Positions 901-63,274 of a DNA stretch of 64,000 nucleotides are shown piece after piece. This DNA is from Demequina sp. NBRC 110055 (GTDB lineage Bacteria > Actinomycetota > Actinomycetes > Actinomycetales > Demequinaceae): NCBI RefSeq assembly GCF_002090135.1, contig NZ_BBRL01000004.1, positions 744,001-808,000 on the forward strand. The letters are read 5' to 3'. How positions within the stretch are numbered: position 1 is the stretch's first letter; the number at the start of each line of letters is the position of its first letter. The notes under the pieces are model-generated. The model was not told where the DNA came from and searched no databases. It was given only the letters and a program-made list of their open reading frames with translations. The position numbers were made by a program, and so were the translations under genes.

Positions 901-1359
901 CTAACGGACCTCGCGCGTCATGAACCGGCTGAGGGGATCGGGCCCGTAGTCCGCGAACGGCGGGCAGTTCACGAACCCGTGGCGCTCGTAGAGCCGATGC
1001 GCCGGCCAGAACGGCTCGTCCCTCCCTGTCTCGAGGCTCACCCTGGCGTAACCACGCTCGCGGGAGGCGCGCAGGATTTCTCCTAGGAGTGCCGTCGCGA
1101 CTCCGCGGCCACGCGCGGCATCGGCCGTCCTCATCGACTTCACCTCGCCGTGCGCATGGTCGAGTTCTTTCAGCGCGCCGATGCCCAGCAGCGTGCCGTC
1201 CTCCCAGGCCGTCCACACCGTGATGTCCGGACCGCGCAAGGAATCGAGGGGGAGGGCGTGGACGGACTCGGCCGGTGACCCTGCATGCATGGCCTCAAGG
1301 TGTGCGGCGAGCAGTGCGTGCACCTGGGGTCGGCTGAGGTCGTCGATCTCGATCTCCAC
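901..1359 (-). CDS. GNAT-family N-acetyltransferase
   Basis: A 152-residue GNAT-fold protein. The acetyl-CoA-binding pyrophosphate loop is visible as ARGRGVATALL, preceded by the beta strand containing GEVKSMRT and followed by LYERHGF near the C-terminus. The pattern ESVHAL...TVWTAWEDG...GALKEL is typical of a widespread actinobacterial GNAT subgroup whose acceptor substrate is unknown. The GTG at 1359 is preferred over a start further upstream: the upstream extension is low-complexity and runs into the divergent gene, and CACACT sits six bases before this GTG as a leaderless -10 element. It is divergent from the small membrane protein gene at 1438. Confidence 0.85.
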   Translation of the reverse strand: MEIEIDDLSRPQVHALLAAHLEAMHAGSPAESVHALPLDSLRGPDITVWTAWEDGTLLGIGALKELDHAHGEVKSMRTADAARGRGVATALLGEILRASRERGYARVSLETGRDEPFWPAHRLYERHGFVNCPPFADYGPDPLSRFMTREVR

Positions 1360-1437
1360 GCCTGGAGTGTGCCACGCGGTACGCCTGTGAGGGGCCGCGT
1401 GCACCGCGTCGTGTCCCGGCGGCGCTACTCTCACCGC

Positions 1438-1629
1438 ATGGGAACGACTGCGTGGATCGTGATCGCCGGCATCGTGGCGATCGCGACGATCATCGCGTAC
1501 GTGGTGCGCCATCGCGACCGCTGGCCGCAGGCGATCTTCGTGGGCCTCGGAGTCTTCGTCTTGCTCTTCGCCGTGAAATGGGGCATCGACGAGATCACCT
1601 CGTTTGTGTGGATCCCCGCCGAAGGATAG
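1438..1629 (+). CDS. small two-helix membrane protein
   Basis: A 63-residue protein with two predicted membrane helices (about residues 5-24 and 33-50) separated by the charged loop RHRDRW, leaving both ends on the same side of the membrane. No family is recognised. The ATG at 1438 is chosen because TACTCT at 1426-1431 lies exactly six bases upstream, matching the leaderless promoter pattern seen elsewhere in the window. A longer in-frame start exists but would run through the promoter of the divergent acetyltransferase gene. Confidence 0.65.
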   Translation: MGTTAWIVIAGIVAIATIIAYVVRHRDRWPQAIFVGLGVFVLLFAVKWGIDEITSFVWIPAEG

Positions 1630-1690
1630 GCCCGGCGAGCCGGTTCGGTCACGTTTCGATCACGGCACGCGGGCGCTCGTCACGGGCCTG

Positions 1691-1720
1691 TTGCACGCGT
1701 GTTAACAGTGGTCGCACTCT
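1691..1720 (+). promoter_or_regulatory. possible promoter of the dpp operon
   Basis: TTGCAC (1691-1696) and CACTCT (1715-1720) are separated by 18 bp, about 95 bp upstream of dppA. TTAACA at 1702 and TAGGAA at 1745 are alternatives, so the true start is uncertain. No operator palindrome was evident in the 184-bp gap. Confidence 0.3.
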
Positions 1721-1813
1721 GTGAGAACTGAGCGTTCTCCCTGCTAGGAATGAAGGCGCGGAGCCTCCCTCAACCCGGGGGCGGCAACCGTCTCATCCAG
1801 GAGGGACCCATCC

Positions 1814-3484: not shown

Positions 3485-3494
3485 TGCATGAGCT

Positions 3495-3520
3495 CGGGGG
3501 CCGGGGCAACCCGGCCCCCG
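3495..3520 (+). terminator. intra-operon hairpin (attenuator or mRNA stabiliser)
   Basis: An 11-bp G/C stem, CGGGGGCCGGG (3495-3505) against CCCGGCCCCCG (3510-3520), is closed by a GCAA tetraloop of the stable GNRA class. It sits between dppA and dppB with no T-tract. Such hairpins commonly raise binding-protein mRNA over the membrane subunits; that role is inferred. Confidence 0.6.
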
Positions 3521-4659: not shown

Positions 4660-5706
4660 ATGGCCACCACCGCATCGGCCCGCCCCTCGCTCTTCCAGCG
4701 TCTGCCGGTCATCTCCCAGGTGCGTTCCTCGGTCGGACTGCAGCGCGGCATGCTCATCGCAGGCCTCCTCCTCACCGGCATCTTCGTCCTCACCGCGATC
4801 TTCGCCCCACTGCTCGCGCCCTACGGCTTTGCGCAGCTGCGCGACGACGACGGTGCATTCGGGGCCCTCCAGGAACCCTCTGCGGCGCACCTCCTCGGCA
4901 CCACGACGGGCGGCTACGACGTCCTGTCCCGCCTCATCTGGGGAGCGCGCACCGCGCTGTACGTCATCGTGGTCGCGGTCATTGCCTCCATCGTGGTCGG
5001 CGTCGCCTTGGGTCTCATCGCGGGGTACTTCGGCGGCTGGCTCGACCGCATCCTGGTGGTGGTGGCCGATGCGCTGTACAGCTTCCCGTCGCTGCTCCTC
5101 GCGATCGTGGTCGCCATCGTCGTCTCGGGAGGCCAGTCGTCGATGTGGGGCGGCATCCTCGCCGCCGCGCTGTCGATCACGGTGATCTTCATCCCGCAGT
5201 ACCTGCGCGTGACGCGCGCCGAGGTGGTACGCATCAAGTCCGAGCCCTTCGTGGAGTCCGCGAGGGTCATCGGCGCGAGTCACGCGCGCATCATGACCCG
5301 CCACGTGCTGCGCAACTCGACCCGCACCCTGCCGCTGATCATCACCCTCAACGCCTCGGAAGCGATTCTCACGCTCGCCGCGCTGGGATTCCTGGGCTTC
5401 GGCATCGAGCCGACCGCCGCGGCCGAGTGGGGCTACGACCTCAACAGGGCGGTGTCCGACGTCACGAGCGGCATCTGGTGGACCGCACTGTTCCCCGGCC
5501 TCGCCATCGTCCTGTCGGTGATGGGCCTCACCCTCGTGGGCGAAAGCCTCAACGACCTCGCCGATCCTCGTTTGCGTCGCCGCGCCGCGGGAGGCGAGCC
5601 CGCAGAGGACCTGCTCGCTCCCGAGGGTGACCCCGGATCCGGTGACGGCGACACGGACCTCGCCGAGGCATCGGCCACCCCCATGACGAAGGAGGGCACC
5701 GTATGA
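4660..5706 (+). CDS. dppC: peptide ABC transporter permease, DppC type
   Basis: A 348-residue permease with the DppC/OppC layout: cytoplasmic N-terminus, first helix, a soluble segment containing HLLGTTTGGYDVLSRLIWG, then five more helices. The EAA loop reads ESARVIGASHARIMTRHVLRN and the family motif LGFLGFGI follows. An acidic tail of about 40 residues (GDPGSGDGDTD) extends past the last helix and is longer than usual. The TGA overlaps the ATG of dppD (ATGA), indicating tight coupling of channel and motor subunits. Confidence 0.9.
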   Translation: MATTASARPSLFQRLPVISQVRSSVGLQRGMLIAGLLLTGIFVLTAIFAPLLAPYGFAQLRDDDGAFGALQEPSAAHLLGTTTGGYDVLSRLIWGARTALYVIVVAVIASIVVGVALGLIAGYFGGWLDRILVVVADALYSFPSLLLAIVVAIVVSGGQSSMWGGILAAALSITVIFIPQYLRVTRAEVVRIKSEPFVESARVIGASHARIMTRHVLRNSTRTLPLIITLNASEAILTLAALGFLGFGIEPTAAAEWGYDLNRAVSDVTSGIWWTALFPGLAIVLSVMGLTLVGESLNDLADPRLRRRAAGGEPAEDLLAPEGDPGSGDGDTDLAEASATPMTKEGTV

Positions 5707-9495: not shown

Positions 9496-9627
9496 TAAGG
9501 ATGCCTGCTAGATGGCCGATGCCACAGGTGGCCTGGTATTTCGGCACGGACTCTGTGTGGGGTATTCCCGCGTCAGCGGTGGGCGAAACCACTGGCACGC
9601 CGGCCGCCGCGGTGCGACGATCGCCCT

Positions 9628-9804: not shown

Positions 9805-9858
9805 CGCATCGGCCATCTTCCCCGCGCGCCCGAGGGCGATCGGTGTGACGATGGGCAG

Positions 9859-11320: not shown

Positions 11321-12118
11321 CTACTCCTCGTTGTCTTTGCCCGCTCGCGCGATCAGTGCCACGCCCACCACGACCGCCGCAATGGCAAGGGCGACGGTCA
11401 GCGTCGACCGCGTCGAGGGGCGTCCGCGCAGCTCGACAGGACGCTTGAAGCGCAGGTTTCCCCACCCATGAGCGATGGCGGCCTTGCGCATGGCGCGGTC
11501 GGCGTTGACGGTGAAGCCGTGACCCACGGCGTCAAGCATCGGAGCGTCGGTGATCGAGTCGGAGTAGGCGTAGCTGCGACGCAGGTCGTAGCCCTGCTCC
11601 TCGGCCAGCGCTCGTATGGCATCGGCCTTCGCCTCGCCGTACGCGTAGTAGCTGACCTCGCCCGTGTAGTGGCCCTTCTTCACCTTGAGCTCGGAGGCGA
11701 TCACGTGGTCCGCGCCCAGGATTTGCGCGATGGGCTCGACGATGTCGCGGACCGAGGCGGACACGATCACCACGTCGCGGCCATTCGCATGGTGGCGGTC
11801 GATGAGTTCGAGCGCCTCGGCATAGACCACGGGGTCAATGTGCTCGTGCACCGTCTCGTTGACGATCTGCGTGACCTTGGCGACCTCCCAGCCCTTGACC
11901 AGGTCGCTCAGGGAGTCGCGCAGACGGTTGGTCTGGCGCTCGTCCGCCGCGCCCACCAGGAACAGGAACTGCGCATAGGCGGTGCGCAGGGCATCGGCCC
12001 GCGTGACCAGTCCTCCCTCGTAAAAGGACCGTGAGAACGCCATCGACGAGCTGGTCGCGATGATCGTCTTGTCCAGATCGAAGAAGGCCGCGGACGGGCG
12101 GCGGGTCGAGCGGGCCAT
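11321..12118 (-). CDS. HAD-superfamily IB phosphatase with C-terminal membrane helix
   Basis: A 265-residue SerB-like hydrolase. Motif I is FFDLDKT with the two catalytic Asp, motif II is VIVSAS, and motif III/IV is the Lys of KADAIRA plus YSDSITDAPML. A hydrophobic helix (about residues 240-257) ends the protein, suggesting membrane attachment. The family (HAD-IB, TIGR01490-like) dephosphorylates small molecules; the substrate is not known. AGGAGG four bases before the ATG sets the start. It is divergent from the tad operon, as the related Rv3661 is next to the mycobacterial tad genes, but the septum-site protein Ssd that is often between them is absent. Confidence 0.88.
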   Translation of the reverse strand: MARSTRRPSAAFFDLDKTIIATSSSMAFSRSFYEGGLVTRADALRTAYAQFLFLVGAADERQTNRLRDSLSDLVKGWEVAKVTQIVNETVHEHIDPVVYAEALELIDRHHANGRDVVIVSASVRDIVEPIAQILGADHVIASELKVKKGHYTGEVSYYAYGEAKADAIRALAEEQGYDLRRSYAYSDSITDAPMLDAVGHGFTVNADRAMRKAAIAHGWGNLRFKRPVELRGRPSTRSTLTVALAIAAVVVGVALIARAGKDNEE

Positions 12119-12267
12119 GAAACCTCCTGTTTCGACCCAGCCTAGCGGCGGCCGCGGACAGCCGGCCAGGGTGCAGCGTCGTCCCCGGCCCGCCGCGGGA
12201 TCGGCCTGTGTCCACCGATATGGCGAGCGGCCGATGCCGTGGCCGGCTCCCGTGTCAGCCTCGCCGT

Positions 12268-13317: not shown

Positions 13318-14266
13318 CAGGGCCGGACCCCCACCGGCCCCCACGCGCGCACTCGCGAATGCGGTCGCCCTGCTCGAATCCGGCTTGCCCGCGGCACAAG
13401 CATGGCCGCTCGCCGGGCTGAGCGTCACCGACGAGGGGCGTCCCGTGGTGCCGGGGGCCGATGCCGTGGTCACCCGAGCCCTCGCCGCCGCCGCGACGCT
13501 CGCCGATGAGGGCGGAATGCCGCTCGCCGCGGTGCTGCGCCGGGTCCTCGCGGTGCTCCACGCGCGCGAGGAGGCGGCCGATGCGCGCGAGGCGGCCCTC
13601 GCCGGCCCCCGCATGAGCGCTCGCGTGCTGGGCTGGCTGCCGCTGGCCGGGCTCGGGCTCGCGGCGGCTCTGGACCCCGGCGCGCTGAGGCTTGTCGCGC
13701 TGACGCCCCTGGGCTGGATGCTGCTGGCGGGCGCGGGGCTGCTGACGTGGGTCGGCCGGAGGTGGACGCGGGCCCTGCTCGCCCGCGCGGAGCCGCCCGG
13801 CACGGAACTGCCCGCTCCGCTCGTGCTCGCGCTCGTGGACGCGGTCCTCGCCGCCGGCATCGACGTGCCCGGCACGCTCATGCGCATCGGGGTGGTGCTG
13901 GGTGGCGCCGACGGCGAGGCGCTCGTCGCGACGGGCGAGCAACTCGCACACGGAGCGCCGTGGGACGAGGCGTGGTCGGGGGCCGATGCCGAGGACCTGA
14001 CCGGTGCCGAGGGCCTGGCCGGTGCCGTGCGTCAGGCGCTCCAGGCCGCCCACCTGGCCGGGGCATCGGCCGGCCCCGCGCTCGCGGCCGCGATCGACCA
14101 GGCGGTGCGCGAGGACAAGCGCGCGGGCCAGAAGGCGGCGGCTGAACTGTCGGTGACCCTCGCGCTGCCACTCACACTGTGCCTGCTGCCCGCCTTCATC
14201 TTGGTTGGCGTGGTGCCACTCATCGTCGCGGTGGTCGCGTCGGTCGACCTCGGAACGGTCGTATGA
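13298..14266 (+). CDS. Tad platform protein, TadB and TadC apparently fused
   Basis: A 322-residue membrane protein with two related halves. The first has a helical cytoplasmic region (AVALLESGLPAAQAW, about residues 18-95) and a membrane pair near residues 110-150. The second has ALVDAVLAAGIDVPGTL, then AGASAGPALAAAIDQAVRED and a terminal membrane pair. The latter pattern is the type II secretion F domain of TadC; the first half fits a shortened TadB. The usual arrangement is two genes, so this is a compact fusion or one strongly reduced platform protein. GGAGGAGG six bases before the GTG at 13298 fixes the start inside tadA. ATGA at the end opens another frame, but the next convincing gene is the pilin. 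Confidence 0.75.
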   Translation: MRPWRRNRAGPPPAPTRALANAVALLESGLPAAQAWPLAGLSVTDEGRPVVPGADAVVTRALAAAATLADEGGMPLAAVLRRVLAVLHAREEAADAREAALAGPRMSARVLGWLPLAGLGLAAALDPGALRLVALTPLGWMLLAGAGLLTWVGRRWTRALLARAEPPGTELPAPLVLALVDAVLAAGIDVPGTLMRIGVVLGGADGEALVATGEQLAHGAPWDEAWSGADAEDLTGAEGLAGAVRQALQAAHLAGASAGPALAAAIDQAVREDKRAGQKAAAELSVTLALPLTLCLLPAFILVGVVPLIVAVVASVDLGTVV

Positions 14267-14563: not shown

Positions 14564-14886
14564 TCCGCGGGCGCGGCGACCGGGGGTCCGTGACGGCCGA
14601 GCTGGCCCTCGTGCTCCCGGCCGCCGTGCTCGTGCTCGCCCTCATGCTGGGAGCGCTCGCGTGGGCGATGGCGCACCTGAGCGCGGCCGATGCGGCCTCG
14701 GCGGCCGCGCGCACGGCAGCCGTCGAGGGGGAGGTCGCCGCGCGCTCCGCCTTCGGCTCCCGGATGACCGACGCCACCCTCGGCCTCGCGTCCGACGGTG
14801 CGTGGGTGACGGCGACCGTCACGGCCGACGGTCCGGCGTGGCTACCGGACGTGGTGGCCCGCGCGGTGGCGAGGGAAGAACGGTGA
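14560..14886 (+). CDS. TadE-like pseudopilin
   Basis: A 108-residue protein that starts with RGSVTAELALVLPAAVLVLALM, the TadE-type prepilin-like helix with Glu near its start, followed by a small extracytoplasmic domain. TadE-like proteins are minor pilins or assembly factors of the Tad system. It overlaps the pilin gene upstream by ATGA and the next gene by GTGA, so the three are coupled. Position and size match Rv3655c. Confidence 0.85.
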   Translation: MIRGRGDRGSVTAELALVLPAAVLVLALMLGALAWAMAHLSAADAASAAARTAAVEGEVAARSAFGSRMTDATLGLASDGAWVTATVTADGPAWLPDVVARAVAREER

Positions 14887-15288: not shown

Positions 15289-17862
15289 TTACCCGCGGTC
15301 GACCAGGCCACGGTGGACGGCAGCGGCGACCGCTCGCGCCCGGGTCGGCTCGCCAAGCTTCTGCAGCACCGCCGACACGTGGTGCTCCACGGTCCGGCGC
15401 GACAGCACCAACTCCCTGGCGATATCGGGCGTGGACAGCCCCGCGGCCAGCAACTGCAGCACCTCCCCCTCGCGTGGCGTCAGGCCCACCCCGGCGTGGT
15501 CCGACGACGGGCCGTTCCCACCGCGTCGCGCGCGCTCGCGCCCGAGAGCAGCCGCCACTGCGCTTGCGCCGGCGGCGACCGCGGCCGCGATGGCGCGGTG
15601 CGCCATGGCTCCGTGAGGTCCGGCCGCGGCGCCATAGGCGGCCCAGATGGGGTCGCCCACGTTGCTCCATTCCCGCGCCGCGCTCTCACCGTCCCCGGCA
15701 AGCATGCAAGCGAACGGGGGCGCGAGGGAGGAGAGCTCCACCGTGGCCGCCAGGCTGGCAAGGTGACGCCACCACGCGAGCTCGCCCAGCAGCCAAGGAT
15801 CCGGTGCGCCCTGAGCGAGCTCCCAGGCGAGATCGGTGGCTGCCGCGATGTCGTGGACGCGGCCATCCAGCCACGCATACTCCGCGGCCGCGCAGGCCAC
15901 CGGGCCGATGCGCTGGATCTCGCCTGTTTCCGCCGCGAGCCGCTGCGCCAGCGCAAGGTATGACTGCGGATCGTCACCGCGCAGCATCGTCGCCCTCGCC
16001 GCGGCGCATGCCGCGGGAATGGTCGAGATGGGGGACACGCCCTGGGGTCCCAGTACCTCGTGAGCGACGCCGAGAGCCTCGTCGAGCCGTCCCACATGCA
16101 CCAGGGCGTCGGCCCGCAGCGCCTTCATGTACCGGGTCCACGAGTCCAGGTCGTGGGCTTCGGTGTAGTCGATCCCGGCCTCCAGTTGTGCCAGGGCGTC
16201 GGGTAGCTTGCGGTGCCTCAGCGCCGCCGAGCCCAGATTGGTCTGGGCCCGTGCCGCGTGTTCCTCGAAGCCCGCCAAGAGGGCCCCATCGAGGCTTTGG
16301 CGCAGCCGGGCAACACCCGCGGGCTCGTATGTCGAGACGGCCATGGCCGAGCCCACGTTGTTGAGCGCGTGGATCCGGATCTCGTCCTCGCCCAGCTCGC
16401 TCGCGAGCGCGATGGCCTGCTCGCCCCACCGCACCGCCTCCTCGGTGTCGTCCGCGAGCATCCGCAGCTGCGACAGGTTGCTCCACGCCGCCGCCAGCGG
16501 TACCGACGGCCCCAGGGGTTCGAGGGTGTGGCAGGCGTCCTGGGCGAAGCGTTCCGCATCTGCCCCGCGACCCAGAAACCAGGACAGCCGTGATAGCCAC
16601 CGCTGGTCGTCGCCGACCTCCATGGCCTCGTTTGCCGCCGCATGGAACTCGAGTGCATGATGGCGCGCGGTCAGCGCCTCCAAGAGCTGGTCGGTGAGGT
16701 AGCACTCGTGTGAGAGCTCGACGTAAAGGCCCGCGCGGTCGTTGGCCGGTGGCCCGTGCCGTAGCGCGGCACGCAATTGCGTGGCCGCCTCGCGGTGGGC
16801 TCCCAGCGCGGCCAGGTGCCGTCCCGCGATGGCCGCGTGGTGTGCGGCGACGGTGGCCTCGCCACACTGTGCAGCGTGGTGCGCGATCCGTCGGTGATCC
16901 TCGGGGGTGCGTCGCTGGACCTCCGTGAGCGCGGCGCGGTGCAGGCGACGCGCCTGAGGGGCCGTGACCGCGGCCTCGACGGCCTCTCGCGCCAGCTCGT
17001 GCCGGTACGCGACCCCAGAGTCGCGCACGACGAGCATTCCTCGCTCTACGCACTCGTCGATGGCGTCGAGGGAGCAGCCCGCCACGGCGGCCATGAGGTC
17101 CGCGGGAGCGCTGTCCCCCACGACCGCGGCCGCCTCCGCGGCGACCCGCGCGTCGGGGGAGAGCCGTGCAAGTCGGGCGCGCACGGCATCGGCCACACCG
17201 GTGGGCAGCGTGGAACCGCTGGTAGCGAGCACCTCCGTCACGTAGAACGCATTGCCCGCGGTGCGGGCGTGCAGCGTCGCGGCGTCGGTGACGGAGCGCG
17301 CGTGCGCCACAAGAGTGGCGACGCCGTCGACGGTGAGCGCCGGGACGTCGATCCGAGTGGTGTGCGGCCACCGAGCCGCCTCATCGAGGAGTTGAGTGAG
17401 CGGATGGCTAGGGCCGATGTCGTCCGGGCGGAAGGTGGCGATCACCATCAGCGGTGCCGTCTCGCTCCGTCGGCCTAAAAACTGCAGGGCATTGAGGGTC
17501 GCGTCGTCCGCCCAGTGCATGTCTTCGAGCACCATTGCGGTGGGCTCGCGGGTGAGGGTGGCCCGCAGTCGCGTGTGAAGCGTGTAGCGGCTCAGTGCCC
17601 CGGCCTGCACGGCGGCCACGTCGTCGGCGATCTCGGGCACGGCCTCCTGGAACGCGGCGAGCGCGTCCGCCGTCGTGACGTTGTCCGCGCCTCCCACACG
17701 CACCCGGCACCCCTCGTACCCGTGTGTGAGGAACTCGCGCACCAGCGTGGTCTTTCCCTGACCCGCTTCTCCCGCCACCAGGACGAACGCGCCCGCACCC
17801 CTCGTTGCCGCCTCCCGCAGGGAAGCGAGCTGTGTCAGGTGATCCTCGCGTTCGACGATCAT
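15289..17862 (-). CDS. large ATPase regulator with LuxR-type DNA-binding domain
   Basis: An 857-residue STAND/MalT-like transcription regulator. Residues 31-38 form Walker A (GEAGQGKT), VLEDMHWADD is Walker B, and a long helical region of tetratricopeptide-like repeats fills the middle. The last 60 residues are a LuxR helix-turn-helix (LTPREGEVLQLLAAGL ... LSRRTVEHHVSAVLQKL). Such proteins switch on target genes when a ligand binds the sensor and ATP drives oligomerisation; the ligand is unknown. It lies 16 bp downstream of the DUF4242 gene on the same strand, so the pair is probably one operon. No ribosome-binding site is obvious before the ATG. Confidence 0.88.
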   Translation of the reverse strand: MIVEREDHLTQLASLREAATRGAGAFVLVAGEAGQGKTTLVREFLTHGYEGCRVRVGGADNVTTADALAAFQEAVPEIADDVAAVQAGALSRYTLHTRLRATLTREPTAMVLEDMHWADDATLNALQFLGRRSETAPLMVIATFRPDDIGPSHPLTQLLDEAARWPHTTRIDVPALTVDGVATLVAHARSVTDAATLHARTAGNAFYVTEVLATSGSTLPTGVADAVRARLARLSPDARVAAEAAAVVGDSAPADLMAAVAGCSLDAIDECVERGMLVVRDSGVAYRHELAREAVEAAVTAPQARRLHRAALTEVQRRTPEDHRRIAHHAAQCGEATVAAHHAAIAGRHLAALGAHREAATQLRAALRHGPPANDRAGLYVELSHECYLTDQLLEALTARHHALEFHAAANEAMEVGDDQRWLSRLSWFLGRGADAERFAQDACHTLEPLGPSVPLAAAWSNLSQLRMLADDTEEAVRWGEQAIALASELGEDEIRIHALNNVGSAMAVSTYEPAGVARLRQSLDGALLAGFEEHAARAQTNLGSAALRHRKLPDALAQLEAGIDYTEAHDLDSWTRYMKALRADALVHVGRLDEALGVAHEVLGPQGVSPISTIPAACAAARATMLRGDDPQSYLALAQRLAAETGEIQRIGPVACAAAEYAWLDGRVHDIAAATDLAWELAQGAPDPWLLGELAWWRHLASLAATVELSSLAPPFACMLAGDGESAAREWSNVGDPIWAAYGAAAGPHGAMAHRAIAAAVAAGASAVAAALGRERARRGGNGPSSDHAGVGLTPREGEVLQLLAAGLSTPDIARELVLSRRTVEHHVSAVLQKLGEPTRARAVAAAVHRGLVDRG

Positions 17863-20625: not shown

Positions 20626-21161
20626 CGCGCGTTCCTTTCCTCGGCGGTCGCGCCATCCGCGACCGCCGCGTCCTCGAGTGGCCCGAGGGCCAACTCCAGC
20701 TGCCCCAGCCCATCGCTGAGGTAGCGCTTCACGGTGCCGCCGGCCAGGCCAAGCTGGCGCGCAATCTGCGGCACGGTGAGGTCGTCAAAGAACCGCAGCA
20801 CCACGCAGGCCCGGACGCGTGGCGGCAGGGTCGCCAGCGCATCGGCCACGTCGGAGCCCGCCTCGACCTGGCCAAAGCGGTCCGGAACCACCGCATCGGC
20901 CTTGAACAGGTGCTGCACCCGCTGCCAGCGCTGCTGACGGCGATAGCCGTCGACATACGTCGAGGTAATCGCTCGACGCACATACGCCTCCGCCTTCAGC
21001 GACGTGAGGCCCGGACGCTCCCGCGAGAACGTCCTGACCAGCGCGTCCTGCACCAGGTCCTGCGCCTGCACCGGGTCGCCGCACACCAGATAGGCGTACG
21101 ACAGCAGTGCGCGTTCACGGTCGCGCACCAGCTGCTCCATCGTGTCCCGCCACAGGGCCAT
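20622..21161 (-). CDS. SigE-family extracytoplasmic-function sigma factor
   Basis: A 179-residue RNA polymerase sigma factor. Region 2 is LLSYAYLVCGDPVQAQDLVQDALVRTF and region 4 contains LPPRVRACVVLRFFDDLTVPQIARQL plus GGTVKRYLSDGL, the helix-turn-helix for the -35 element. The FFDDL signature and TGT/GGTVKRYL are typical of the SigE family of actinobacteria. GGAGG five bases before the ATG fixes the start. It is the first gene of a two-gene operon with the membrane partner, and may read the CCAACGTTTTG element upstream (inferred). Confidence 0.9.
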   Translation of the reverse strand: MALWRDTMEQLVRDRERALLSYAYLVCGDPVQAQDLVQDALVRTFSRERPGLTSLKAEAYVRRAITSTYVDGYRRQQRWQRVQHLFKADAVVPDRFGQVEAGSDVADALATLPPRVRACVVLRFFDDLTVPQIARQLGLAGGTVKRYLSDGLGQLELALGPLEDAAVADGATAEERNAR

Positions 21162-21224: not shown

Positions 21225-21315
21225 GGCGGCCGATGCCGTGGCTGGCTTGTCGCCCCACGTCGCCGGGTTCCCGGCCTGGGTTGCAGGCTTCCCCTAGAGT
21301 GGCAAGCAGCCCGGT

Positions 21316-28195: not shown

Positions 28196-28359
28196 CGAGG
28201 GGCGCTGAGCCCGACCACGCGGTGGCTGCGCTCCATCGACCATGCCGCAGGGAGCGACGTGACGCACCTCACAGTGGTGGTGGGGTGCGCGGGGCCGATG
28301 CCGTGCGTTCTCTCCTCGCGGCAGTCGGCCGTATTACCCCTGATCGAGGAGTCGTTGCC

Positions 28360-43743: not shown

Positions 43744-43798
43744 TCGGCCACAACCCCACCGCGGCATCGGCCGTTCATATGCCGACGAAAGGGGAGCG

Positions 43799-44335: not shown

Positions 44336-45708
44336 ACCTTCACGAGGAGTTGGGCAGGATCGGGGCCGATGCGACGGCAGGGTCGGGTTCGCGGCTCACC
44401 TCTGTCGAGGTGGCGGACGGGCTGGGTGCGCGGGTGCGCCGTGGGCGGCGGCAGAGGGCGCTCGGCGGCGCCGGGGTGGTCGCGGGCGTGGCATTGATCG
44501 CGGTGGGGGTGTGGAGTTTTGCGCCCTTGGGCGACTCCGGTCCCGTGGGGCCGGCCGGCACGTCGGTCGACTCGACGCCCCGGTACGAGTTGCCCGACAT
44601 TAAGGGCGCGACGGAGTACACGGTGGACGGATCGGCGCGGATGAGCGATAACGTGCCTGTCGACCTACGCCTGCCGAATGAGCTCATCTGTGGCGCCGCG
44701 GTGAACCTCGCCGAGGGCGTCACGGTCCACGACCCGTCGGTGCTGTCGGCGGGGGTGCAGGTGTCGGCTGCGTCGCGGTCGTTGCTGGACGACGACACCG
44801 TGGTGGATGACCCCGACTCCATCTGGGTGGGGTATGAAGCCCACCACTTCGAGACTGCCGTGGGTTGGCAGGATGGGGCGGGCATCTCGACGACGACAGT
44901 GCCGCTACTGATGCGGTCAGGCGAGATCGTTGGCATCGGCGTGGCCGAGGGGGCCGAAGGTGGTGGTCCTGGTGGCAGCGCGGAGTCCGGGCCCCTTTGG
45001 AGCCCGCTGCCGGGTGACTGTGCGAACGGCGCCCCGTCTGGCGCTCTCGTCGACGGCACCTACCAGCCCGTGCTCGCGACGCAGGTGTGGTCGGCGAACC
45101 TGCAGACGGCGCTCGCGACCATCGTGGTCAGCGGGGGTGACCTGGAGTACACCGGGGTCCCACAGATGGCCGGCTCGGATGTGCCGGAGAACCTCGCGAC
45201 GGCTGGGTCGGTCATGTTGGCAGGCGGATTTACCTGTCCGGCAACCCTGGGCGCCGCGGAGGCCACGGCACACGATGGCGTGGAGGACACCTCAACCGCG
45301 GCGTTGGCGCCGATCCCGGGCACTCTCGAGACGGGGCGACTCTATGGCTACGGTGACGATGCCCTGGTGGGCGGCTACCCGGCACCGCTTGGGCCCGACG
45401 CGGGGCTCGCGGTCGAGGAGTTCGGGCGTGAACCGGCGCGGCTGGTGCTGTCGTCCGGCGAAGACCGGTGGGTGTTCGATGCCGCCTGGTCCGAACGGGA
45501 CGACCTCCCGCACGACGATGCTGGATGGTTCGTGGCCCTGAGCCAGGTCTGGGACTGCGGCTCGCCTGACCTGATCCCGGCGGGCGACTACCGCGCACGG
45601 CTGATCTATTCGGATTCAATCGAGGGTGAGGTCGGGACGGCCGTCATGTCGGACGTCACGGTGGTGCAGGGAGTCCCCTCCATCCCTGAACTGGATCCGG
45701 AAGGCTGA
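44332..45708 (+). CDS. membrane partner D of the sigma factor
   Basis: A 458-residue single-pass protein. Cytoplasmic 1-42 (MNLHEELGRIGAD ... RVRRGRRQR), helix about 44-63, then the extracytoplasmic domain. It shares with partner E the blocks CGAAVNLAEGVTVHD and LQTALATIVVSGG, and with A-C the C-terminal WDCGSPDLIPAGDYRARLI. Cys pairs may be disulfide-linked outside. Expressed in one unit with the sigma factor (ATGA overlap). No enzyme motif is seen. A ligand- or envelope-sensing role coupled to the sigma factor is inferred. Confidence 0.7.
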   Translation: MNLHEELGRIGADATAGSGSRLTSVEVADGLGARVRRGRRQRALGGAGVVAGVALIAVGVWSFAPLGDSGPVGPAGTSVDSTPRYELPDIKGATEYTVDGSARMSDNVPVDLRLPNELICGAAVNLAEGVTVHDPSVLSAGVQVSAASRSLLDDDTVVDDPDSIWVGYEAHHFETAVGWQDGAGISTTTVPLLMRSGEIVGIGVAEGAEGGGPGGSAESGPLWSPLPGDCANGAPSGALVDGTYQPVLATQVWSANLQTALATIVVSGGDLEYTGVPQMAGSDVPENLATAGSVMLAGGFTCPATLGAAEATAHDGVEDTSTAALAPIPGTLETGRLYGYGDDALVGGYPAPLGPDAGLAVEEFGREPARLVLSSGEDRWVFDAAWSERDDLPHDDAGWFVALSQVWDCGSPDLIPAGDYRARLIYSDSIEGEVGTAVMSDVTVVQGVPSIPELDPEG

Positions 45709-46298: not shown

Positions 46299-47182
46299 GC
46301 GACATGTTCCATGCTGTCCAGCGCGCCACGGACAGCACCGCACGCCGCGTGGCCCAGGCCATGGCGACCGACAAGCGGGTGGCGGCCACGGCATCGGCCA
46401 TCCGGGCCGGACGCCGGCGGCGCGCCGTCGCGCAGTCGTCCATCGCAGCGGGGCTGGCCGTCGGTGTGGCGGGCCTGTGGTCGTGGACGCCGCTGTTCGT
46501 GGACCGCGCGGAGCCCGCCCGGCCGTCGGGCCCATACGAGTACGAGGCGACAGAGACATCGCCCATGGGCGATCCCGCGCTCCTGCTCACTGGTGACAAC
46601 GAGGTGAGATGTGGTGACCAGGTCTCGCTGCACCCAGGTGTCACTGTGCACGACGCCCGGGCGCTAGGACGCGACGTCTTGCTGGAGGCCGTCTCTCAGA
46701 CCCTCCACGACGTCATGCCCGGTGACCCACCAGCCACGCCGGAGCCGATTGTTTCGGAGTGGCCCGACGGGCCCACCAACGACTGGGATCCCCGCGAGGA
46801 GGTGTGGAGTGCGCGAGTGAGCGGCGATGTCAACGCCATCCGCATCGCCACCGTCGCGCTCGACGGCGAGGAGGTGGTGGGCTACGTGCAGGACACGACA
46901 GTGACGGGTATCGCGGGGCCGATCGGCGGTGGCTCGAATGGAGTGCGAGTCGCGCGGATTGGTGAATGCGAAGGCGAGGACCAGACGTGGGAGAACGTCG
47001 AGGCTACCGAGAAAGCCGACTTTCAGGACACACGGCTCGTCGCTCAGTATTGGGGGACCTTCGCGGACGACGAGCGGGTGCTGCTCGCGACCATCGTGGT
47101 CGACCCGAGCCTGCCGCCGAACACGACGACCGCACCGACCGCAATGCCCGACGATGCGGGATCATCGGTGCATCCCGAGTGA
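46295..47182 (+). CDS. membrane partner E, short relative of partner D
   Basis: A 295-residue single-pass protein: cytoplasmic 1-44 with RAGRRRRAVAQ, helix about 46-65, then a reduced extracytoplasmic domain. CGDQVSLHPGVTVHD and RVLLATIVVD align with partner D, but the protein stops after them and lacks the C-terminal PAGxY module found in A-D. The end is followed four bases later by the convergent DUF998 gene, so it could be a natural truncation of the D type. The ATGA overlap with the sigma gene shows that the pairing is kept. Confidence 0.7.
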   Translation: MSDMFHAVQRATDSTARRVAQAMATDKRVAATASAIRAGRRRRAVAQSSIAAGLAVGVAGLWSWTPLFVDRAEPARPSGPYEYEATETSPMGDPALLLTGDNEVRCGDQVSLHPGVTVHDARALGRDVLLEAVSQTLHDVMPGDPPATPEPIVSEWPDGPTNDWDPREEVWSARVSGDVNAIRIATVALDGEEVVGYVQDTTVTGIAGPIGGGSNGVRVARIGECEGEDQTWENVEATEKADFQDTRLVAQYWGTFADDERVLLATIVVDPSLPPNTTTAPTAMPDDAGSSVHPE

Positions 47183-47185: not shown

Positions 47186-47821
47186 TCAGTTTTCCGTCTG
47201 ACCGGAGCGGATGCGATCGAGCCGCGCGCCGAGCGCCGCGAGCCATGCCGGGATGACCGCGAACGCCAGCGCTCGCTGCCACCACCCAAAGCCGTCGCCG
47301 ACGGCATCGGCCCAGACAAGGTAGACGGCGAGCAGCCCGCTCGCGACCAGGCCATAGGTGAGGGAGACCCGTGTCCATCGGCCCCACATAGTGGTGTCGC
47401 GGAAGGCGAGCCAGCCCGCGAAGCCGAGCGCGATGAGGGCGATGAAGGCAAGCCCGGCGCCGCGTGAGTGGAGCCAGCCCTCCGCGCTGACGGTCGGCGA
47501 GCCGAGCGGGTCGGCGCGGAACACCCCAGCTATGACAAGTCCCAGCGCGCCGAGCCACGCGAGGACGGCGAGCGTGACGCCCGCCCGCCCCGGCACCGTG
47601 CGGCGCATGCCCTCGCCGGCGGCCACCCAGCCCGCGGCGTTGAGGAAGAACGCGAGCCTCATCAGCCAAGCCCAGTCGCCACGGGCGTAGTTACTGATGT
47701 ACGCGTCTCCAGGAGCGAGGTCCGGGCGGAGCAGATGGAGCACCGCGATGATGCCGACCCACGCCAGCGCACCCACGATCGCCGCACGTCCGAGCGTGAC
47801 AACGGGGTCGGTTCTGGGCAT
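47186..47821 (-). CDS. DUF998 family membrane protein, copy 2
   Basis: A 211-residue six-helix protein with the DUF998 landmarks DAYISNYARGDWAWLMRLAFF, EGWLHSRGAG and DGFGWWQRALAFAVIPAW. It is a diverged paralogue of the gene at 39034 and lies on the same strand, so the two bracket the sigma array. The ATG at 47821 has GAACCT five bases upstream; a GTG at 47845 would add eight residues. Its function is unknown. Confidence 0.75.
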   Translation of the reverse strand: MPRTDPVVTLGRAAIVGALAWVGIIAVLHLLRPDLAPGDAYISNYARGDWAWLMRLAFFLNAAGWVAAGEGMRRTVPGRAGVTLAVLAWLGALGLVIAGVFRADPLGSPTVSAEGWLHSRGAGLAFIALIALGFAGWLAFRDTTMWGRWTRVSLTYGLVASGLLAVYLVWADAVGDGFGWWQRALAFAVIPAWLAALGARLDRIRSGQTEN

Positions 47822-49233: not shown

Positions 49234-52200
49234 ATGTCGAACAGCACGTCTATGCGCGCCGGAACTCACCACTCGATGTCGCGCCACCGCTGGTGGAACG
49301 CGGCCGCAGTTGCCGCTGTGGCCCTACTTGTGACGGGAGTCACAGCGCCCGCCGCGTCGGCGCACACGTTCACGTACGACCCGGACGTGAGCACGTGGCC
49401 ATCCCCGTACTCGCCGCTCCCTCTCGACGCGCTCGTCGCGACGAATGACGTGTCGCTCGAGTTCGATGGCACGGAAGAGGGGCTGCACGCCGGAGCCGAC
49501 GCGCTGGGCGGTGATCTTGGCTTTACGATGGTGCAGCCCTCGACGTCTGAGCAGACGACGGGCGCCGGTGGCGCCGACCCGGATGGCCTTTACCAGGGCT
49601 ATTACCTGCCTCAGTTCGTCAGCCTTGCGGGCGGCAGCCTCGTCATCGACGCGACCAAGGGCATCCAGTACGTGCTGCAGGGCACTTCGGGCTCGGACCG
49701 CTTCCGCAACACCCAGGACAACGCCTTCGGTGTCCCGCTGGCCTCCGCGGGAGCCAAGGTCCAGCTCAGCACGACGATGACGGTGCCCGGCAATGCGACG
49801 AACTCTGCGCAAGGTGGACTCTGGTTCGGCCCGGACGACGACAACTACGTCAAGCTCGTGGTGCTGACCTCGGGCACGAGCCGCCAGGTCCAGTTGGCGC
49901 GTGAGATCGGCGGCGTGATGGACACGTCCGCGCCCACCGACGACCAGGTGACGTCGGCCAATGTGCCGATTACTGACGCGACGCCAGTCACGTTGACCCT
50001 CACGCTCGACGCGGTCACGGGCACCGCGCATGCGAGCTATGCCATCGGTGCGGGCGCCACCGTCGAGCTAGGCGAGGTAGGGCTTCCCGCGAACTTCTCG
50101 GACGGCAGCCTCCTGCCCGAGCTCACCTCCGACCCGACGACAACTGCGTTCGGTGGCGTTTTCGCCACCCGCCGCAACATGGACTCGCTCACGACTCCGG
50201 TCCCCTTCGCGTTTGCCGACTTCTCCGTCTCGGAACTGGACACCGTGCCGCCGGAGGCGCCCGAGGGCCTCTCCGTGGACGCCGAGCCTGACTCGACGGG
50301 ACTGACGTGGACCCCGTCGGTCGACGACGACGTCGAGGGCTACCGCGTGTACCGCTCGGCGGGCTCTCCGGTTGATCCGGTAGCGGCGAACTTGATCAGC
50401 GGCGATGAGTTGGTGTCGGGCACGACCTTCACTGACAGTCGCGTGTTTGTCGGGCAGGAATGGGTCTACGCCATCCACGCCGTCGACGAAGCCGGCAACG
50501 AATCGGTCACCGGGATCGAGGCGACGGTGCCAACGCCCGCGCCCGACGGCGAGCTGGTCGGCAAGTACGACTTCACGACCTCCGGTGGCGCGCTCGCGAG
50601 CGGCTACATCCGCGACAGCGGAGCCCCGTACTCCGAAGGTGCAGGATTTGGCTGGATCACCGCTGACGACGGGACACCCTTCAACTTTGGTCCGAACACT
50701 CGCGTCAGGAGCAACACGAATGGCATCACCGACGGGCGCCTGACCTCGATCATCCACCTGCAGTACGGTCAGTCGACGACGGTTCCTCCGCCCACGCCCG
50801 GCACTAACGGGGTGTCAACGGAGCAGGCCGTGTGGGAACTCGACGTCCCGAACGGCGCGTACGCCGTCGTGGTCGCCGCGGGTGACACGAGCGACGGAAA
50901 CTTCGACAGCAGCCACACGGTCGTCGTCGAGGGTGAGACCGCGATCGACGGCTTCGACGGAGCCGCTCCGCTGTACTTCGAGCAGGGCGTGGTCGAGGTG
51001 GAGGTGACGGACGGCAAGCTCACCATCGCACCGACCGGAGGTGTCAACACCAAGCTCTCGTTCGTCGAGATCTACGAGGTGGAGGCGGCCCCGCTTGCTG
51101 CTCCGGGCGACTTCTCCGCCGCTTTGGGTGCCGACGAGGCATCGGTCGACCTGAGCTGGACCGCCGTCGCCGGCGCCGAGGAGTACCTCGTGTACCGCAG
51201 CGCCACCTCGCCCGTCTCCACCGAGACGCCTCTGACCGGCGAGCCCGTCACGGGCACGACCTACACCGACGACACCGTCGAGGCGGGCCAGACGTACTAC
51301 TACACGGTCGTTGCCGCCTCGTCGAGCGCGCCCCAGTCGAGCGCCGCGGCCGAGCAGTCTGTCGAGGTGCCCGCCGCGGCCGTGGCGCCGGATGCGCCCG
51401 CCAACGTGACCGCGACGGCCGATGCCGACAGCATCCTGGTGGAGTGGGATGCGGTGGCCGGTGCGGTGGGTTACCAGGTCTTCCGCGGCACCTCGAGCGA
51501 GGTGGCCACGGATGGAACGCCGCTGTCGGGTGGCTCGGCGATTGCCGAGACCGAGTTCGATGACACCACCGCGGTGCCCGGCACCGAGTACTTCTATGTG
51601 GTCGTCGCCGTGGGCGAGGACGACCTCGAGTCGGAGGCGTCGGTGGCGGCGTCCGCCACCGTGGCGGAGGTCGTTGATCCGACCCTCGACGCACCCGCGA
51701 ACGTGACCGCGACGGCCGATGCCGACAGCATCCTGGTGGAGTGGGATGCGGTGGCCGGTGCGGTGGGTTACCAGGTCTTCCGCGGCACCTCGAGCGAGGT
51801 GGCCACGGATGGAACGCCGCTGTCGGGTGGCTCGGCGATTGCCGAGACCGAGTTCGATGACACCACCGCGGTGCCCGGCACCAAGTACTTCTATGTGGTC
51901 GTCGCCGTGGGCGAGGACGACCTCGAGTCGGAGGCGTCGGCAGCGGCATCCGCCACCGTGGCGGAGGTCGTCGATCCCGTCGAGTGCGCGGCGACGGAGT
52001 GGGCGGTGGAGTACTTCGCCGGTACCGAGTTGGCCGGTCCGCGCATCGCCGAGGACTGCCTGAGCGTCATCAACCAGACGTATGCGAGCGGTGAATCGCC
52101 CGCGGACGAAGTCCCCGCCACCGACTACTCGGCACGCTTCTCGACGACCGCGGAGTTCGCCGAGGCCGGTGACTACGTGTTCGCGCTGACTCACGACGAC

Positions 52201-58200: not shown

Positions 58201-61200
58201 GTGGGAGTCGGCGACCCTGCCGTGAACAGTGACCCCGAATCTCACGTGATCAACGCCGAGAACGAGGTGCTTGTCCCCGCCTTCGTCCCCAGCGGCGTCG
58301 CGGGCTCGGCGACGCGCCACAGCATCCGCACCGCAACGGTCGAGGTTGCCGACGGCTTCTTGACGATCGACCCGCGCGGAGGTGTCAACACCAAGATCGG
58401 CTTCATCGACATCGTCCCGCTCACGGTCACCGACCCCGGCGGCGACGACCCCTCGGATGGTGCGCAGGTCAAGGTCAACTTCCAGCCCGCATCGGCCCCC
58501 GTGCCCGAGGGCTGGACCGCGGAGACGGGCGGAGCCTTCAGCTCCGAGCGAGGGTTCGGCTGGCTCAACGCCGCGAACGACCAGCCGGTGGATCGCACCA
58601 TCGCCACCCGGTACCGCACCGGCGCGCTCAGCGGCATCGCGTACCCGAGCGACGAGCGCCTGAAGACCTACGCGTTCATGGATAACGTCACGCAGCCGCC
58701 CTACACGGATGGCTACTGGGAGTACGAGGTGCCCAACGGCACCTATGAGATTGCGCTCTCCGTCGGTGACGCGAACTACCTCGACTCCACGCACAGGGTC
58801 TACGTCGAGGGCCAGCCCATCATCAACGGCTTCGTCCCCACGACGGCCACGCCCTTCCAGACGGGCGTGCGCACGGTCGAGGTCACCGATGGCCGGCTGA
58901 CCGTCTCTACCGACTACAGCGACGTGGTGGACAACGCCACCGAGGGCAACACCAAGATCAACTGGGTGTCGATCAAGGGCGATGGGCTCGAGCCCAGCGA
59001 GCCCACCACCACCGCTCAGGTCACTTTCCGTCCCTCCACGGCATCCGTGCCCGCCGGATGGACGGCAGACACGGGCGCGGCGTACAACGACACCACGGGC
59101 TACGGCTGGCTCGTCAACGACGCACCGTTCGACCGTTCGTCCATGACGCGCTTGCGCGCCACACCCGCGGGCAACCCGCTGCAGCAGGGACTCATCCTGA
59201 TGCAGAACGTCACGACGACGGGTTCCACGATTGCCGGCGGCACCGTCGGCACCTGGGAGTACGCCCTCGCCAACGGCACCTACACCGTCACCGCCTCGGT
59301 AGGTGACGGCGAGTACACCGACTCGGTGCACGGTCTGGCGGCTGAGGGAGAGCCGCTCATCGAGGGCTTCACGCCCACCACCGGGACACCGTTTGCCAGC
59401 GGCAGTGCCGAGGTGCTGGTGAGCGACGGCAAACTCACGCTGACGCCCACGGGTATCAACACCAAGGTCAACTGGGTCACCATCGCCGGAACCGCGCTGA
59501 GCGCACCGAGCCTGACGATCTCCGGCAACGGTGCGGCGATCGCGGACCACTACGACGGTGGCGTGGTCGAGGTGACCGCGCAGGCACTGGCGGCGTCCGG
59601 CGCGTCCATCGAGTCGTTCACGTACTCGATCGACGGCGCCACCCCGGTGGACTACACCGCACCCTTCACGCTCGACGAGCCGGGCGAGTACGAGGTGGTC
59701 TTCGAGGCGACCGACTCCGAGGACCGTGTGTCGACCCGCACGATCGCGTTCACGGTCCTGGACATCGGCGGAACGCTCGAGCTCACAAACACCCAGATCC
59801 CCCACCAGCCCAACGGCGACCCGATCCCCGGCCTTTACGACGACGTGCTCACCATGCACCGCATGAACAGCGGCACCATGTCGACGGGTGCGACGCCGAC
59901 CCTCCTGTATCGCTCCTACGACAGCGCCACCGTCGAGGTCGAGAACACGGGCGCCAAGGACCTGCGCATTACCGCGCTCACGTTGGGCGGCGGGCAGGCC
60001 GGCCAGTTCCAGTTGGTCAATGCGCCCACGTTGCCGCTCATCATCGAGCCCGGCGAGTCGCAGGACCTCACCGTCCGGTTCATCGGTTCGGGCGGCGCCA
60101 AGGGCATCCGGTCGGCCTCGCTGACACTCGCCTCAAGCGCCGTGGGCGCCGCCTCCACCGTGATTGAGTTGCGTGCCGGATACATGGCGCAGCCCGAGGG
60201 CGGCAATGAACTGAGCCTGGGCCAGGTCGTCGACCTCTTCAAGAGTGACACGTTTGTGGGTGCCGAGGACCTGGGCCTGGGCAACGGTTCGGAGAACCAC
60301 GGTTCCCCGCTCAACGGTGATGAGGTGCGCTCCACCCTGTGGAAGCGGCTCGACTCGTCGAAGCCCGTGCAGGCGGTGCAGCTCGCCTCGTTCCACGGCC
60401 AGGGCGGCAACGAGACCCTGCGCATCGGTAACAACTCGGTGTCGATGACGGGACTCGACGCCCAGTCGCTGTTCCCCAAGACCGGCGCCGGCAACCCCGT
60501 CACGCTCACCCTGAACAACCCCGCCGCGACCTTTGACATGGCCGTGAGTGGCCAGTCGACCAACCGCACGGACTACATGGCGGTGAAGACCTGGCCGTTC
60601 AAGGACGTCGACGGCGACGTGGTGCCCGGTTCTTGGTGGGTCGGTCACGACTACGTGAGCTCGGTCAGCCAGTGCGGTGTGGGCGCCACCAACTGTGACT
60701 TCCAGGACAACGTCTACCTTGTCACCAACGTGCTGCCCGTGACTCCGGACGCCACGGCGCCGGCGGCGCCCGCGGCGCCCACGGGCGAGGCTGACAGTAG
60801 CGGGGTGGACCTCACCTGGGCGGCCTCGGCCGATGCCGACCTCATGGGTTACCGCGTCGAGCGCTCCGCCTTCGCGGCCGGACCGTGGACCTCGGCCAGC
60901 GGTACCAGTGTGGTCACGGGGACCACCTTCCGTGACACCGGCGCCCCGAGCGCGGCAGCCACCTTCTACCGCATTGTCGCCCTCGACGCGACGGGCAACG
61001 CCACGCCGGGAGCCGCGACGGCCATCGACACGTCGGCCGTCGACGTGCCCGCCATCCGCATCAACGCGGGTGGACCCACGGTCACGACAGGCGGCAACAC
61101 CTGGGTCGCGGACTCGCCCTACGTCACTGGTGTGAACACCAAGACGTACACCAACAGCGCTGTGACGCAGATCGCGAACACCACCGACGACGTGCTGTAT

Positions 61201-62493: not shown

Positions 62494-62529
62494 TGCGCCG
62501 TCGGGACCGCGTGCGCGCCGGCCCGTCGG

Positions 62530-63126
62530 CTACTTCGCGCTGATGACATTCGACGTCAACTCCGCGACCGCCGCGTGGCCCGCCGCGGTCAACGAGCCGT
62601 CATCGGCCACCAGCGTGGGGTCGGTCAGCGGCTCGCTGACGTCGACATAGACGGCGCCCACCGAGGCCGCCGCCTCGGCGACGGCATCATCCAGGACCGT
62701 GACCGCGTCCGAAGGGCCACTGGCCAGGCCCGCCACCGCGTAGATGGTCGCCTTCGGGAACGTCTCGCGTGCCTCGACGTACGTGGCGCGCACCGCCGCG
62801 CGGATCTCGCCCGGTGTCGCGTCGAGGTCGGACAGGCCGCCAGAGACCACGACGACATCGGGCTCGTCAACCACCAGAGCGGGGAGTTGTTCGCGAAACG
62901 TTGCCATGCACACCGTGCCGCGCTGCGTGTAGCCCGAGTCGGAGCAGCCCGCGTTGATCTCGGCCCATCCCTGCGAGGCGGAAACCGAATCCACCCACGA
63001 GGGCGCATCGGTCGGTGCCACGAGCGTCGCCCCATCGCCCACAAACACGGCGGTCGGAGGCTCGGGCGCGCACGCCGCGAGCGGCGATGCGATCATCGCC
63101 GCCACAAGAATCGCCACGCGTCTCAT
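62530..63126 (-). CDS. lipoprotein with degenerate SGNH/GDSL-hydrolase fold
   Basis: A 198-residue exported protein: lipobox LAAC at about residues 16-19 predicts lipid anchoring outside the membrane. The layout follows SGNH hydrolases, but block I reads FVGDGATL with Gly where the nucleophilic Ser of GDS should be, block III reads GGLSDL with Ser for the catalytic Asn, and only the terminal GH of LTAAGHAAV fits the His block. It may bind acyl or glycan ligands without hydrolysis. Two Cys (INAGCSDS, TVCMAT) may be paired. GAGGGG four bases before the ATG at 63126 fixes the start. It converges on the giant gene with a 36-bp gap. Confidence 0.72.
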   Translation of the reverse strand: MRRVAILVAAMIASPLAACAPEPPTAVFVGDGATLVAPTDAPSWVDSVSASQGWAEINAGCSDSGYTQRGTVCMATFREQLPALVVDEPDVVVVSGGLSDLDATPGEIRAAVRATYVEARETFPKATIYAVAGLASGPSDAVTVLDDAVAEAAASVGAVYVDVSEPLTDPTLVADDGSLTAAGHAAVAELTSNVISAK

Positions 63127-63274
63127 GTCACCCCTCAGTGACCAGTGTCTCCCCAGTCCTATCGGCACCTCAAGGGGCTCGCCGCAGTTTTTTCGTCCGG
63201 CCGATGCCGTGGCTGGCCCCCGCACGTCCACAGCCCCGTGCGCCGGTGTCGGTACCCGCCGGTAGGTTGGTCGC

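Follow-up and report, generated by a model that had tools for sequence, protein, structure and literature searches.

The Neisseriaceae and the Pasteurellaceae are diderm Proteobacteria, and the Actinomycetota are regarded as lacking an outer membrane. The DNA uptake sequences (DUS) can lie as inverted pairs near gene ends or between genes. HIP1 of cyanobacteria is a palindrome with the core GCGATCGC, which is over-represented genome-wide, inside genes too. The available text of a 2016 review names two families with sequence-tagged DNA uptake, the Neisseriaceae and the Pasteurellaceae (PMC5031613). In the Neisseriaceae, eight dialects of the DUS were described, which are present in 943 to 5,918 copies, keep an invariant core and agree with the phylogeny; according to the accessible parts of the same paper, two dialects coexist in one genome, and five members of the family have no obvious DUS (Frye et al. 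2013, PMC3630211). Micrococcus luteus is naturally competent, with ComEA, ComEC and Flp/Tad pili (reviewed in PMC6370729), and the accessible part of that review makes no mention of an uptake word in this species. Among the papers listed by searches of the open literature, none was found to describe an uptake sequence from Demequina or any other of the Actinomycetota (subscription papers and preprints lay mostly outside this scope).

The locus considered here is a window of 64 kb (G000:C4:744001-808000), by which the whole stretch of analysed Demequina DNA is meant, with a GC content of 67 to 72%. It carries 41 copies of the word GCATCGGCC, 21 on the plus and 20 on the minus strand, the outermost ones starting at 1118 and ending at 63207. 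In 100 dinucleotide shuffles of the window, 2.39 copies were expected (sd 1.75, maximum 7). The preliminary description had counted about 40 copies, 20 on each strand, against about 2 expected, which agrees well with these values. In an order-2 Markov ranking of the 8- to 11-mers of the window, GCATCGGCC was the top over-represented word (41 copies vs 3.45 expected), and at the other lengths in this range the top words were shorter or longer forms of the same motif. The copies found by word match are the following.

1118..1126, plus strand, GCATCGGCC copy
4672..4680, plus strand, GCATCGGCC copy
5064..5072, minus strand, GCATCGGCC copy
5668..5676, plus strand, GCATCGGCC copy
9514..9522, minus strand, GCATCGGCC copy
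9806..9814, plus strand, GCATCGGCC copy
11619..11627, plus strand, GCATCGGCC copy
11991..11999, plus strand, GCATCGGCC copy
12229..12247, minus strand, GCATCGGCC copy (12229-12237) with the long 5' form GCCRGCCACG
13456..13464, minus strand, GCATCGGCC copy
13576..13584, minus strand, GCATCGGCC copy
13981..13989, minus strand, GCATCGGCC copy
14063..14071, plus strand, GCATCGGCC copy
14685..14693, minus strand, GCATCGGCC copy
15903..15911, minus strand, GCATCGGCC copy
17186..17194, plus strand, GCATCGGCC copy
20549..20557, plus strand, GCATCGGCC copy
20839..20847, plus strand, GCATCGGCC copy, direct pair with 20893
20893..20901, plus strand, GCATCGGCC copy, direct pair with 20839
21228..21246, minus strand, GCATCGGCC copy (21228-21236) with the long 5' form
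25157..25165, minus strand, GCATCGGCC copy
25253..25261, plus strand, GCATCGGCC copy
27774..27782, minus strand, GCATCGGCC copy
28293..28301, minus strand, GCATCGGCC copy
29563..29571, minus strand, GCATCGGCC copy
30833..30841, minus strand, GCATCGGCC copy
31038..31046, plus strand, GCATCGGCC copy
31104..31112, plus strand, GCATCGGCC copy
34745..34753, plus strand, GCATCGGCC copy
34831..34839, plus strand, GCATCGGCC copy
37492..37500, minus strand, GCATCGGCC copy
42364..42372, plus strand, GCATCGGCC copy
43764..43772, plus strand, GCATCGGCC copy
44364..44372, minus strand, GCATCGGCC copy
46391..46399, plus strand, GCATCGGCC copy
47304..47312, plus strand, GCATCGGCC copy
51417..51425, minus strand, GCATCGGCC copy
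51714..51722, minus strand, GCATCGGCC copy
58489..58497, plus strand, GCATCGGCC copy
60828..60836, minus strand, GCATCGGCC copy
63199..63217, minus strand, GCATCGGCC copy (63199-63207) with the long 5' form

The long form GGCCGATGCCGTGGCYGGC occurs three times in the window, at 12229, 21228 and 63199. Seven intergenic copies had been reported before, three of them with the long form. The three long-form copies were recovered, but the intergenic count was not reproduced: with a rough gene caller, 10 of the 41 copies were not wholly in called genes, and among the long forms only that at 63199 was one of these ten. The window also contains a single open frame of 4,419 codons (49234-62493) with PA14, fibronectin III, malectin and kelch domains, the predicted product of which is a giant surface or secreted protein; four GCATCGGCC copies lie in its 13.3 kb.

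The whole genome (G000; 2,821,661 bases in 14 contigs) has 1,732 copies of GCATCGGCC, 863 and 869 on the two strands, and the word read backward has 55 and 37. The density is 0.64/kb in the window and 0.61/kb genome-wide, and the window is typical of the genome in this respect. In a set of 464 kb, made up of the window and 20 further stretches of 20 kb each from the same genome, 283 copies were seen vs 24.6 expected under an order-3 Markov model. Thus, as in DUS and USS systems, the top over-represented word (ranked in the window and in the 464 kb) occurs on both strands and in hundreds to thousands of copies (counted in the whole genome). Like the DUS of the Neisseriaceae, it is short and non-palindromic with hundreds to thousands of copies per genome (PMC3630211, available parts), and it shares with the USS of the Pasteurellaceae a 9-nt core, many copies and species variants, as far as these are given in the accessible texts (PMC5031613, PMC12616744, PMC1626085). 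The core sequence differs from that of the USS. It also differs from that of the DUS, being GCRTCG and belonging to another phylum, the Actinomycetota. Unlike the USS of Haemophilus, the uptake specificity of which has been established by experiment according to the available text of PMC7811141, the Demequina word is a putative uptake word.

The word often encodes alanine-rich peptides in DNA of high GC content, and it could on these grounds be attributed to bias in codons, dipeptides or mutation, or else be taken for a dispersed mobile or REP repeat. This explanation is hardly credible in view of the counts in coding DNA. In 504 kb of the same genome, where the rough gene caller placed 370 genes, 223 of 305 copies were inside called genes and 82 outside, some of the latter perhaps in missed genes. 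Synonymous-codon shuffling within genes gave a mean of 32.0 copies (sd 4.9, maximum 44 in 100 shuffles) vs the 223 coding copies. The density of GCATCGGCC was 1.07/kb outside called genes and 0.52/kb inside them. The 27 single-base variants of the word were found 1 to 59 times each in the 464 kb, near the expected 1.5 to 46.4, the commonest being GCATCGGCG (59 vs 35.8 expected). The preliminary description had named two outcomes that would speak against its idea, a genome count equal to the codon-shuffled expectation and an equal abundance of single-base variants; the 1,732 copies genome-wide, the 223 coding copies vs 32 in the 504 kb and the 1 to 59 copies per variant vs 283 in the 464 kb differ from both. 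It had also stated that the word forces rare codons. This is correct insofar as the peptides most often encoded are xADA (117 of 223 coding copies) and ASA (53 of 223) and the ASA frame requires GCA, which makes up 7.5% of alanine codons; GAT, at 20% of aspartate codons, is less rare.

The surroundings of the word also speak against a repeat. A longer preference, approximately S.C.RCCRCG-GCATCGGCC-.YC...A, was seen around 78 copies outside called genes, and ACGGCATCGGCC was found in 75 copies vs 0.7 expected in the 464 kb. These preferences die out past about -10 and +15. The long conserved and mostly intergenic copies characteristic of REP or mobile repeats were not seen in the 504 kb, where the flanks fade and most copies are genic. 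The number of GCATCGGCC copies correlated with GC content over 25 segments (r 0.66). The word-poor stretch L011:1-20000 (G000:C4:400001-420000) has one copy in 20 kb vs a mean of 12 for the 20 stretches. It is of lower GC content and carries genes for xylan and uronate use (GH115, mannonate dehydratase, mannitol dehydrogenase and a sugar transporter); the locus was possibly acquired. The scarcity of the word there is as expected if newly gained DNA is free of it, with the reservation that this is a single case and that the count also tracks GC.

A short non-palindromic word that is plentiful genome-wide might alternatively be a polar signal of the chi or KOPS type, serving recombination or chromosome segregation. 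Such a role has next to no probability, as it is contradicted by the strands: 155 copies are on the plus and 150 on the minus strand in the 504 kb, the window has its 21 and 20, and other stretches showed no consistent bias, with single stretches reaching 10 vs 4 and 3 vs 8. The argument from balanced strands made in the preliminary description thus holds on the larger sample. Even spacing was sought in the 504 kb and was absent (the coefficient of variation of the gaps was 1.02, which equals random; the longest gap was 9.2 kb). Among neighbouring copies at most 60 bp apart, 12 of 16 pairs were inverted and 4 direct, part of them not intergenic; pairs 61 to 200 bp apart comprised 12 inverted vs 19 direct, with no inverted excess (504 kb). 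Intergenic gaps of 20 to 350 bp had 2.24 copies/kb when convergent, 1.33 when tandem and 0.58 when divergent (8, 12 and 3 copies, respectively).

The word is not the same throughout the genus. In 44 Demequina genomes, including the one described here, GCATCGGCC counts range from 68 to 2,018, and high counts are strand-balanced. A second word, GCATCGTCC, reaches 929 to 1,864 copies in 16 of the 44 genomes, and none of the remaining 28 has more than 275; the genome described here has 119. Because the reversed form of GCATCGTCC is rare in all 47 genomes, it makes a poor control, and species were compared instead. A third word, AGCGTCGGSC, reaches 1,201 copies in G037, with 308 in G027, 255 in G034 and 141 in G033. 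Genome G018 is mixed, having 1,294 copies of GCATCGTCC and 664 of GCATCGGCC. Five of the 44 genomes (G004, G033, G034, G036 and G043) have no strong word, each of the three words being present in at most 255 copies. In a de novo search for top words (14 to 100 kb from each of 39 congeners), a related word was found in 34, although only weakly among the top words in G012, G022, G027, G032 and G040; five genomes showed no clear related top word, namely G004, G034, G043, G013 and G033, of which the last two were represented by 18 kb only. Finer variants, CGGCATCGGCC, CGCATCGGC and AGCATCGGCC, differ in the base preceding the core. Flank preferences at -10, -8, -5, -4 and +10 are common to the two best-sampled dialects. 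Part of this may come from codon phase; copies outside genes show the same preferences.

In a tree built for 34 genomes from a concatenation of eight proteins, with much of the data missing, the dialects fall largely in clades. The two genomes G004 and G043, which have no strong word, and G027 with its weak excess of AGCGTCGGSC sit inside the GCATCGTCC clade. The congeners thus share the word or its dialects in a manner consistent with the phylogeny, as in DUS and USS systems, with the exception of the five genomes in which all three words stay at or below 255 copies. Dialects that are one or two letters apart around an invariant part and agree with the phylogeny, and a two-dialect genome, here G018, are likenesses to the DUS of the Neisseriaceae (PMC3630211, available parts). 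The copy numbers and clade dialects of the putative uptake word match the published Neisseriaceae uptake sequences.

The dialects also bear on the comparison with HIP1. A HIP1-like iterated word, kept by a process at the DNA level that is unrelated to uptake, for example methylation-linked repair, would resemble GCATCGGCC in being over-represented inside genes across the whole genome. Such an origin is quite improbable for the Demequina word, as HIP1 is palindromic and GCATCGGCC and its dialects are not; GCATCGGCC also has asymmetric flank preferences and clade dialects. It is the dialect pattern that favours an uptake sequence over a HIP1-like word.

Sites in orthologous genes were compared in 31 genomes (16 of dialect G and 15 of dialect T) using reciprocal best hits of at least 60% identity that were codon-aligned. 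The mixed genome G018 (GCATCGTCC/GCATCGGCC) was taken as T, and nine genomes with no clear dialect were excluded. The rows are genome pairs, so that sites recur and pairs are non-independent; the cross-dialect sets contain 279 and 185 distinct query sites. In same-dialect pairs, 526 of the 1,773 aligned sites of dialect G and 347 of the 767 of dialect T had the exact word, and just 2 of 1,773 and 10 of 767 had the word of the other dialect. In cross-dialect pairs, the old word was retained at 86 of 1,024 and 57 of 869 sites, and an exact switch to the word of the other dialect had occurred at 66 of 1,024 (6.4%) and 66 of 869 (7.6%). The same single change in other 9-mers, a control that was not frame-matched, had a frequency of 0.18% and 0.42%. 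In the main frames, the genetic code turns the switch into a residue change (ASA to ASS, ADA to DDA), and a residue-changing switch so far above control is a further point against a by-product of codon or peptide bias.

Where the residues were the same, the sites within a dialect were nucleotide-identical in 285 of 416, 151 of 194 and 299 of 585 cases in the three frames vs 32.6-33.0% for other 9-mers; the first of these is the frame requiring rare codons (control 32.6%). Across dialects the corresponding values were 1 of 105, 90 of 172 and 36 of 224 vs about 30%, the middle frame, in which the codons are preferred ones, going against the trend. The comparison of orthologs in sister species, put forward in the preliminary description as a check, hence showed the word to be conserved within a dialect above control 9-mers. 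The alignments demonstrate that, at some orthologous sites, one dialect has been exchanged for another in situ. The codon shuffle, the density outside genes, the variants near expectation and the conservation within dialects together with the switching between them indicate that the word itself is the target. The preliminary description had suggested that the DNA word is acted on by selection or by copying, as in the case of uptake sequences or HIP1, and the action on the word itself is supported by the shuffle, the extragenic density, the variants and the ortholog sites. At the level of sequence statistics, these data demonstrate genome-wide maintenance of the word to a degree that codon usage, peptides and base composition do not account for.

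Outside the genus, GCATCGGCC, the only word counted there, was nowhere comparably abundant in 273 genomes drawn from 19 other families in the same order. The highest density was 332 copies in 1.9 Mb (G278, family f20). Four genomes of this family (G278, G203, G083 and G248) have 222 to 332 copies vs 49 to 58 of the reversed word, strand-balanced, and this mild excess could be either a dialect or a composition effect. In Kineococcus, AACGTCCCC, the strongest candidate from another family, was considered as an uptake word and rejected: K. xinjiangensis (4.6 Mb) has 154 copies and K. indalonis 27, eight of nine locus copies in K. xinjiangensis are clustered within 1.3 kb in a repeat-like order (L206:735-2033), and the word was read as a repeat. 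Pilus loci of 20 groups, three of them Demequinaceae, contained no more than 0 to 4 copies each of GCATCGGCC and GCATCGTCC (42 of 80 PilC loci); this is a weak test because the loci are conserved operons.

The genes expected of an uptake system, a type IV filament and ComEA/ComEC, are present in the genome studied, as in DUS and USS bacteria. The pilus operon encodes PilM, PilC, two proteins with clear pilin signals and one under the family cut-off. The genome also has two T2SSE ATPases, read as putative PilT and PilB. A ComEA with SLBB and helix-hairpin-helix domains adjoins ComEC, away from the pilus operon. Demequina is thus, like M. luteus, an actinobacterium with ComEA and ComEC, and it differs in having a PilC/PilM-type operon with two T2SSE ATPases instead of Flp/Tad pili (PMC6370729, accessible part). 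The closest PilC relatives among the 80 loci kept were mostly of Demequina (named genomes); relatives also occur in other families, whose genomes are not rich in GCATCGGCC. A 547-aa protein with no Pfam match adjoins the operon pilins (L033:10186-11829); close to this position many congeners carry an open frame with a prepilin signal, roughly 600 to 760 codons long. ComEC was found in 43 of 44 Demequina genomes, the miss being G036, which is 85% complete; the ComEC match is split in G011, G023 and G037 and shortened in G035. In D. sediminis (G023:C1:423579-424363), the ComEC match falls into two pieces, one of which contains a TGA; this may be either true decay or a sequencing error. Pilin signals were found in 44 of 44 genomes. 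As ComEC and pilin signals are present in 43 and 44 of the 44 genomes, respectively, whatever the word count, the uptake machinery is general in the genus and by itself does not predict the word.

This generality has to be weighed with another explanation, in which an abundant chromosomal protein (a nucleoid or segregation protein, or a factor of non-polar recombination hotspots) binds the word and the dialects reflect coevolution of protein and site. Any coevolving DNA-binding protein would also give a strand-balanced genome-wide word, dialects and switching in place, and the word is weak in G004 and G043 despite their pilin genes and ComEC open frames of 840 and 839 aa. This explanation is nevertheless rather unlikely, since the 223 genic copies of 305 force codons, and since copy number and clade dialects fit the published uptake sequences. 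We know of no binding system of that kind with more than 1,000 forced coding sites.

A receptor was sought among the pilins. An unlinked pilin (G000:C4:572975-573385, minus strand) has matches in 44 of 44 genomes, its own included, and is nearest in the three other GCATCGGCC-richest genomes (84, 71 and 69% identity). In these four genomes (L233:1501-1911, L234, L235 and L236), the residue after the predicted site of prepilin cleavage is Met (MTLPELL), as against Phe or Tyr in the other extracted pilins. The unlinked pilin at first resembled a ComP-type candidate, but it did not stand out as one: it is acidic, and its dialect effect (0.154) is below those of HrcA (0.262), AroB, AroE, DnaJ, LeuS and LepA, in a regression from which 7 of 30 loci were left out (G012 and G043, which yielded no sequence, G001, which yielded a wrong piece of 24 aa, and four operon pilins). 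The relative effect for ComEC was 0.144 and for ComEA 0.004, and neither these two nor the unlinked pilin showed dialect-linked divergence above that of housekeeping genes. In a tree of 28 extracted pilin sequences, the grouping is largely by dialect. The extracted pilins, which are a part of the genome's pilins, are all acidic, and unlike in the Neisseriaceae no electropositive ComP-like pilin was found among them.

It is probable that GCATCGGCC forms the core, and approximately S.C.RCCRCG-GCATCGGCC-.YC the longer scaffold, of a tag for self-DNA that works like the DUS of the Neisseriaceae. The data suggest that a system of DNA uptake sequences, split into dialects, exists in a monoderm phylum. 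In such a system, the type IV pilus of monoderm Demequina would capture extracellular DNA, and a pilus- or surface-bound protein, the candidate receptor, would prefer duplexes of the local dialect. One strand would then be passed into the cell via ComEA and ComEC. Fragments bearing the word would be taken up and recombined more often, so that the word would accumulate by biased transformation; when the preference of the receptor shifts, the sites would convert to the new dialect.

A more far-reaching reading, which appears somewhat less certain although still favoured, is that this may be a third independent self-DNA recognition system, in monoderm Actinomycetota. It would comprise a pilus uptake machine with a sequence preference and at least three dialects within the genus acting as transformation barriers between species, and its drive would be strong enough to alter amino acids at orthologous sites upon a dialect switch. 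If this is true, sequence-tagged uptake evolved again without an outer membrane, and the specificity must sit on the pilus or the cell wall. The 44 sequenced species of Demequina would then allow one to ask whether a change of dialect causes or follows recombination barriers.
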